DNA from: Barnesiella sp.
GTDB taxonomy: Bacteria; Bacteroidota; Bacteroidia; Bacteroidales; Muribaculaceae
Reading direction: 5' to 3'
Length of the DNA: 64,000 nucleotides
Assembly (NCBI GenBank): GCA_014801075.1
Contig: JAAVEW010000008.1
Location: 79,850-143,849, forward strand
Of this stretch, positions 14,086 to 32,059 are shown piece after piece. The position numbers and the translations under genes were made by a program. Each line of letters starts with the position of its first letter. The first letter of the stretch is position 1. The notes under the pieces are model-generated. The model did not search any database and was not told the DNA's origin. It was given only the letters and a program-made list of their open reading frames with translations.

Positions 14086-14122
14086 TTGGAGGACGAGTCG
14101 GACCAGTCGGACCAGTCGGACA
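14086..14122. repeat. 9-bp tandem array GGAC(G/C)AGTC, about 3.6 units, 3' flank of the four-helix bundle gene
   Basis: ttgga GGACGAGTC GGACCAGTC GGACCAGTC GGACAG. Confidence 0.95.
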
Positions 14123-14140
14123 GCTATTGGGCGGGGGCGG

Positions 14141-14722
14141 TTATTTGGGGCCTCGGTTGTTTTTGCCGCGGTAGGCGAGGCGGGCGTGCATCATTTGTTC
14201 GCGTATGCCGCCATGTTGCAGAAACATTTCCTGTTGCTTTTCAATCAGTCGGCGAAGCATGTAAGTAGCTTGATTTATGAGCGTTATTGCAAGGTTTCCC
14301 ATTTCCTCGTCATTCAACTTCTGCAACAAGGGTTGGTAGTCGGTCAACAACCGCTCGTCTCTGCAGAACGCCCTTAATTTTTGGTAGCGCTGATGGTCAA
14401 CGCCCCATTGCTGCAAACCTCTTACCCGGAGATAATCTTCAAAATCGACCAGAAGTTCTTCAAGGCTCGCTTTGGCAACATTTGTGAGTTTAATCTCCGT
14501 CTCGGTTGAAGTGGAGGATGCTTTACTCCCTTCCGCGATATTCTGTTTTCCCGAGCGGGCGGCCTGTATCATTTGGTCGACAGTTCGGTCGCCGCGGCAT
14601 AGAAATCTTGACGTAAAAGCGAACGTGACATCGTAGATTACTTCGGTAATCCGATAAACCTTAAGGTTTCTGTAGCCACCACGATGTGGAAGAAAACTCA
14701 TATCACCCGAAGCAGCAGCCAT
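14141..14722 (-). CDS. Four-helix bundle protein (23S rRNA IVP/S23/Avd-like family)
   Basis: YRNLKVYRITEVIYDVTFAFTSRFLCRGDRTVDQMIQAARSGKQNIAEGSKASSTSTETEIKLTNVAKASLEELLVDFEDYLR. Confidence 0.88.
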   Translation of the reverse strand: MAAASGDMSFLPHRGGYRNLKVYRITEVIYDVTFAFTSRFLCRGDRTVDQMIQAARSGKQNIAEGSKASSTSTETEIKLTNVAKASLEELLVDFEDYLRVRGLQQWGVDHQRYQKLRAFCRDERLLTDYQPLLQKLNDEEMGNLAITLINQATYMLRRLIEKQQEMFLQHGGIREQMMHARLAYRGKNNRGPK

Positions 14723-14846
14723 AATATCACTTTTTATTGGTGGAAATTAACACGTAAATCTCAAAGATTCACAAAGTTAACTAAATAAGGGGATAATAAA
14801 AATTTTCCGGAGGAAAATTTTTAAAAAAATATTGAGAGGGGAGGGA

Positions 14847-14900
14847 TTGGAGGACGAGTCGGACAGGTCGGACAGGTCGGACCAGTCGGACAGGTCGGAC
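14847..14900. repeat. 9-bp tandem array GGACNRGTC, about 5.4 units, 5' flank of the four-helix bundle gene
   Basis: ttgga GGACGAGTC GGACAGGTC GGACAGGTC GGACCAGTC GGACAGGTC GGAC; first 18 nt identical to 14086-14103. Confidence 0.95.
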
Positions 14901-15041
14901 GCCGGTAGATAGCTTAAGCTACTGAGTTGATTGAAGTTACTTGGAATTTTCAACCATGCATTTACTGTAATTATCGGCACTAACCGCTTGGCATAGTAAG
15001 ATATTACAGGTCAAGGACAGTTAAGGTCAGGTCAGGGACAA

Positions 15042-15095
15042 GACAGGTCAGGTTGGTCCGACCCGTCTGACTCGTCCGACTGGTCTGACCTGTCC
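15042..15095. repeat. Inverted-orientation 9-bp array closing a hairpin
   Basis: GACAGGTCAG (15042-15051) pairs perfectly with CTGACCTGTC (15085-15094); intervening GGTCCGACC CGTCTGACT CGTCCGACT GGTCTGACC. Confidence 0.85.
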
Positions 15096-31967: not shown

Positions 31968-32059
31968 TTCGGTAATTTGGCACGGTATTATTCGGTGATT
32001 TGGCATGAATCTATTCGGTAATTTGGCCGTGATTCGTTCGGTGATTTGGCACGGTTTGT
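31968..32059. repeat. 23-bp-period tandem repeat, 4 copies, core TTCGGTRATTTGGC
   Basis: Copies start at 31968, 31991, 32014, 32037; 14-nt core with alternating A/G at position 7 and a variable 9-nt tail. Confidence 0.93.

Follow-up and report, generated by a model that had tools for sequence, protein, structure and literature searches.

Genes for four-helix-bundle proteins of the S23/IVP type that carry a C-terminal TIGR04258 suffix domain are accompanied by tandem arrays of short units recurring with a period of 9 bp, and the sequence of the unit changes with the protein that it adjoins. The period is specific to the protein subfamily, and arrays of the cognate type are also dispersed over the genome, at sites that are polymorphic between relatives. 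S23/IVP proteins were found in the intervening sequences (IVS) of 23S rRNA in 1993, and their function has been an open question since. The literature searched, which missed most subscription journals, holds no account of an array-protein pairing, and the observations below suggest that protein and repeats form a selfish pair of a kind not described before.

The element upstream of dusB

The window analysed is a 64-kb stretch of a Barnesiella sp. genome (G000), in which the element (Table 1) sits among protein-coding genes, upstream of dusB and outside any 23S rRNA gene. An earlier note on this DNA had described a gene of the IVP/four-helix family with arrays on both sides, and the coordinates, the distances to the stop and start codons and the 18-mer shared by the two arrays are all exact as it gave them; array 3 was not described there as inverted. 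The family assignment likewise holds, with the product scoring above the cut-offs of both TIGR04258 (76.3 bits, cut-off 40) and TIGR02436 (29.5 bits, cut-off 24) and below the Pfam gathering score of PF05635 (S23/IVP; 26.5 bits, gathering score 33.8). The predicted structure of the 193-aa protein (pLDDT 91.6) finds its best PDB matches in the S23-family structures 2gsc and 2rld, at a TM score normalised to the target of 0.68-0.80, and a PDB sequence-profile search returns 2gsc as the only match, a weak one. Neither a known transposase signature nor a catalytic motif was found in the protein. Comparison of the orthologs in G000 and G082 indicates purifying selection on the gene (dN 0.09, dS 0.94, dN/dS about 0.1).

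Table 1. Features of the element and other repeats, in window coordinates
Feature	Position	Strand	Remark
Four-helix-bundle protein gene, S23/IVP-type, 193 aa	14141..14722	-	carries the TIGR04258 suffix at its C-terminus; only protein in the element
TIGR02436 four-helix-bundle part, aa 24-92	14447..14653	-	profile match
TIGR04258 four-helix-bundle suffix domain, aa 138-185	14168..14311	-	profile match
Array 1, units GGAC-GA/CA/CA-GTC, 3.4 units	14091..14121	+	20 bp past the stop codon
Array 2, units GA-AG-AG-CA-AG, about 5 units	14852..14900	+	same orientation as array 1; 130 bp upstream of the start codon
Array 3, in inverted orientation to array 2	15056..15095	-	arms pair with array 2; spacer about 155 bp
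18-mer direct repeat TTGGAGGACGAGTCGGAC, copy 1	14086..14103	+	5 bp of flank and first array units
18-mer direct repeat TTGGAGGACGAGTCGGAC, copy 2	14847..14864	+	
Degenerate region rich in GGTCAGG/GGACA, between arrays 2 and 3	15005..15055		does not keep strictly to the 9-bp register; may be a decayed array
Tandem repeat of 23-bp period, 3.8 copies	31968..32055		

The motif GGACNRGTC matches the window 10 times where 2.7 matches are expected, and all of these matches fall inside the same 1 kb. Array 2 and the inverted array 3 face each other and pair into an extended hairpin (z = -6.8 for the RNA fold), and Rfam returned no match. The local arrays consist of head-to-tail 9-bp units and differ from CRISPR arrays in their unit size, in having no spacers and in the absence of cas genes from this locus; elsewhere, IVP-family (23S_rRNA_IVP) genes have been reported beside CRISPR repeat loci (PMC3936711, PMC10910872).

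Arrays across the protein family

Period-9 arrays lie within 600 bp of the gene at 91 of the 111 TIGR04258 loci (82%) and on both sides of it at 38, as against 28 and 2, respectively, of 406 other genes on the same contigs that served as controls; the excess is about 12-fold, and a detectable array is missing at 20 of the 111 loci. Such arrays reach a density of 0.93 per kb up to 700 bp from the genes, compared with 0.025 per kb beyond 2 kb, and the only periods enriched near suffix-type genes are 9 and its multiples 18 and 27. The left and right arrays of a suffix-type locus are mostly in direct orientation (43 direct, 14 inverted). Within the bacterial family the gene and its arrays are patchy, being present in 31 of 59 genomes. 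The pattern is also seen at L107 and L110, from metagenome-assembled genomes (MAGs) that bear the labels Acidobacteria and Planctomycetes, respectively, a spread across phyla that should be read cautiously because MAGs may be contaminated.

The surroundings of these genes are otherwise varied, with no conserved partner gene among 80 neighbourhoods; only HsdS-like genes, encoding type I restriction specificity proteins, recur near suffix-type genes (nine loci, namely L084, L113, L120 and six further ones). An origin from phages or plasmids is unsupported, as there is no phage record and the candidates amount to one 568-kb Prevotella replicon and one IMG/VR contig. A relative with 42% identity on an IMG/VR contig (L239) lies between 45-nt direct repeats that are 84% identical and share an identical array segment. 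At several Prevotella-type loci the gene-adjacent array continues the reading frame of the gene, so that its translation would yield a low-complexity protein tail, and at L058, L062, L065, L071 and L086 a long S/N/P/Q-rich tail is predicted at the N- or C-terminus. The most plausible reading of such in-frame arrays is that a 9-bp repeat, equal to three codons, is tolerated there, not that it has a function in the protein, because the arrays are non-coding elsewhere.

The period is a property of the subfamily. At 48 classic TIGR02436 loci without the suffix, used for comparison, arrays occur at 26, with a period of 7 (33 arrays) or 8 (8 arrays) and in no case of 9, and their two flanking arrays are inverted relative to each other in 14 of the 15 cases that allow comparison. 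Classic genes with inverted 7- or 8-bp arrays of the AATTCAT, AGTTTAT and TTAGGAG types are seen at L132-L146, L159-L161 and L209-L238, and the 7- and 8-bp arrays of classic loci resemble heptamer repeats that are common in Bacteroidota spacers. A period of 10 (AATCNNGATT) is seen in the few members that have a zinc-ribbon-like tail at the C-terminus; a 250-aa subfamily with a CPxCG tail of this kind (L166, L179, L050, L051) includes some members with 10-bp palindromic arrays of that unit. In the 23S rRNA IVS of Coxiella, two or three tandem GACAGAT heptamers, strain-variable in number, precede the S23p gene (PMC4990558), which fits the period of 7 seen here for classic members, a link that the authors of that work did not draw.

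The unit sequence, in turn, follows the protein. Unit types among the loci include GTCNGACNN, TCNGARTAN, CTCNGAGNN, GTGGGACNN, ATTAGTCYN, TTAAGGGCN and CTAGCNACC as well as others, and array similarity is 0.88 when the arrays on either side of a gene are compared, as against 0.47 between loci. With near-identical proteins removed, protein identity correlates with array similarity (r = 0.45; 0 of 2000 Mantel permutations), and a unit is shared by 84-96% of protein pairs with at least 70% identity as against 3% of pairs below 50%. Five of the six family members examined in the genome G002 have detected arrays, with five different units, while protein subtypes of G002 that recur in G003, G055 and G006 carry the same kind of unit there; hence, the unit is not a property of the genome. 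At 71 of 79 loci the unit consensus shows more palindromic symmetry than its column-shuffled controls. The earlier note had looked to GGACNRGTC arrays as the companions of IVP-family genes, and it is the 9-bp period that proves general; the GGACNRGTC unit is ruled out as a general signature, the unit changing with the protein.

Dispersed arrays and the dusB site

Pattern searches of the genomes show that arrays are not confined to the vicinity of the gene. In G000 a two-unit pattern gives 47 matches at about 20 or more sites, whereas the reversed-pattern control gives none. Among 22 genomes searched, three units of TCNGARTAN give 38-133 matches in each of 8/8 cognate genomes and are present in 2/14 others, and three units of GTCNGACNN give 3-72 matches in 6/6 cognate genomes and are present in 5/16 others; the non-cognate genomes with matches may hold further paralogs. 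Further, of 24 arrays that lie away from a family gene but no more than 10 kb from it, 19 match the unit of that gene (mean similarity 0.80 versus 0.47). The earlier note had named arrays scattered over the genome without a link to this gene family as the outcome that would count against it. The arrays are indeed scattered, and taken alone this genome resembles that case, but in the other family members each array type goes with its cognate gene, and therefore the association stands.

The dispersed cognate arrays are young. At ten dispersed sites of G000 the array is absent from every informative relative in comparisons of orthologous spacers with the congeners G002, G031, G051 and G082 (L002 being excluded and L006 compared without G051). 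The clearest case is an eleventh site, the tig/bioF spacer, which holds in G000 a 192-bp element whose arms match at 38 of 39 bp, and which is absent from G051 and G082. Dispersed arrays occur singly or as inverted pairs, and hand inspection finds most of them behind terminators, inside coding regions, where they keep the reading frame, or in spacers whose flanking genes are co-directional or convergent, with one in a divergent, promoter-type spacer. They have a defined outer end, because GGACGAGTC is the outermost unit in 15 of 26 arrays and GA seldom occurs in inner units (p = 2e-6). Insertion polymorphism and defined ends, as used to recognise transposable elements, are accordingly both present in the dispersed arrays, while for the gene itself the polymorphism is that of gene versus solo array at one site.

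Two further observations deserve mention. The sufC-sufD spacer (L007:4024-4088, compared with L250 and L253) holds different array types in different species, a GTCNGAC array in G000 and a CTCNGAGNN-like 9-bp array in G082 and G002. Two G000 contigs, C22 and C26 (L011, L016), share a hisS/transporter region and the array at its end, inside which C26 terminates, reflecting either an assembly break or a duplication.

The site at which the gene itself varies is the region upstream of dusB, which holds array, gene and array in G000, G082 and G002, about 23 bp of solo array in G031 and G051, and neither in G081. The simplest history is loss of the gene by recombination between direct arrays, because the dusB tree places G031 and G051 beside G002, with weak support; insertion of the gene into a pre-existing array is a possible alternative. 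The copy at this site looks orthologous in G000, G082 and G002, mainly vertical in descent, and lost in G031 and G051, and mobility of the gene itself is therefore weakly supported.

A protein and its cognate repeats

We consider it probable that the gene and its arrays form a REP/RAYT-like selfish pair, one that uses the S23/IVP fold and in which the repeats are putative recognition sites of the protein. The protein, which is presumed pentameric by homology (S23 proteins form pentamers in the Xcc0516 structure, as cited in PMC3936711), would recognise its 9-bp units, whether as DNA or as RNA, with one unit per protomer or dimer, and recognition would drive the spread or maintenance of arrays. 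It could do so by promoting their copying or insertion, probably via a hairpin form as for REP/RAYT, and insertion may rely on host replication or repair. The gene would then be the master copy between two arrays, recombination between direct arrays would delete it and leave a solo array, and the three-codon period would allow arrays to sit in frame within genes. The sequences show the association, the cognate pairing, the subfamily-specific period, the dispersal and the polymorphism, whereas direct binding, protein-driven mobility and hairpin intermediates are what we infer. The suggestion of the earlier note that the repeats are binding or mobility determinants finds support in the family as a whole (82% of loci flanked, unit following protein, dispersal and polymorphism). 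Its further suggestion of a small autonomous element fares worse as to autonomy, in view of a protein without known transposase signature and a dusB copy that looks mainly vertical.

Some features weigh against a selfish pair: the arms of most inverted pairs differ at variable positions and are not exact copies, and units within one array vary at two or three positions, unlike those of a freshly copied element. Slippage and drift under a binding constraint can give divergent arrays without transposition. One alternative is a sequence-specific nucleic-acid-binding regulator or chromosome organiser, for which arrays beside the gene would be autoregulatory and dispersed arrays immobile sites useful to the host, such as a regulon, insulators or terminators. 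The covariation of unit and protein, the purifying selection on the gene and the palindromic units, which are expected for double-stranded DNA sites of a symmetric oligomer, would all suit such a protein; however, the dispersed sites are lineage-specific and mostly outside divergent, promoter-type spacers, and the gene with its arrays is patchy, so that we regard this alternative as unlikely, if worth keeping in mind.

Somewhat more doubtful still is an RNA-level, IVS-like element, in which transcribed inverted arrays would form double-stranded RNA stems for the protein to bind and RNase III to cleave, making insertions tolerable in transcripts. The inverted flanking arrays of the classic loci have the IVS geometry, the RNA folds are very stable (z of -11.3 and -6.8), and the Coxiella burnetii IVS, besides its heptamers, has 28-bp terminal inverted repeats and is excised by RNase III (PMC4990558). 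The suffix-type arrays, though, are mostly direct, and many dispersed arrays are single and intergenic, where transcript processing is not needed. This mode of action is not exclusive of a selfish pair. The idea that slippage gathered simple tandem repeats in spacers and left them beside this gene family by coincidence has a negligible chance of being right, for although tandem repeats also occur away from the gene in these genomes, the excess over control genes, the single subfamily-specific period (coincidence being ruled out by control genes and control periods alike), the matching of unit to protein and the occurrence beyond Bacteroidota-labelled genomes (L107, L110) all speak against it.

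The proposed selfish protein-repeat pair has a close parallel in REP elements and their REP-associated tyrosine transposases (REP/RAYT), where a single small gene is likewise flanked by repeats, non-autonomous cognate repeats are dispersed in spacers, often as inverted pairs, and repeat type covaries with protein type. The covariation and the dispersed palindromic cognate repeats, often paired in inverted orientation, are both found here. The element is nevertheless not a REP/RAYT system in the defining sense, because there is no Y1 HUH transposase (TnpA_REP) and the sole gene between the arrays encodes an S23-type four-helix bundle instead of an HUH enzyme; it also differs in that its arrays have a fixed period of 7, 8, 9 or 10 bp. 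Rickettsia palindromic elements and other MITE-like inserts are palindromic repeats tolerated in frame in genes and inserted in a lineage-specific manner, but the present arrays differ from them in their short period and identifiable cognate protein. The 23S rRNA IVS with S23p of Coxiella burnetii (PMC4990558) shares the protein superfamily and terminal inverted repeats, whereas the element described here lies outside 23S rRNA and has a 9-bp period, a suffix domain and cognate arrays genome-wide. Additionally, PF05635 resembles Avd, the accessory protein of diversity-generating retroelements (DGRs) (PMC10053308), with which the protein shares a four-helix nucleic-acid-binding fold; clustering of the neighbours at 80 loci reveals no recurrent reverse transcriptase or template/variable (TR/VR) repeat of the DGR kind.

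On a broader scale, we lean slightly towards the whole S23/IVP superfamily, including the 23S rRNA IVS, being one selfish protein-repeat class in which each protein has its own repeat and the subfamily fixes the period (7 or 8 in classic members, 9 with TIGR04258, 10 with the zinc ribbon), and whose dispersed arrays would account for many short-period repeats of Bacteroidota. As the cognate repeat can be read beside the gene, hundreds of natural protein-repeat pairs offer a directly testable recognition code and a point of comparison for Avd and REP/RAYT, together with a possible source of the many short-period repeats in gut Bacteroidales that have had no explanation. If the proteins move the arrays, they would constitute a mobile system without a known transposase; if they only bind them, they would represent a new modular fold for nucleic-acid recognition.
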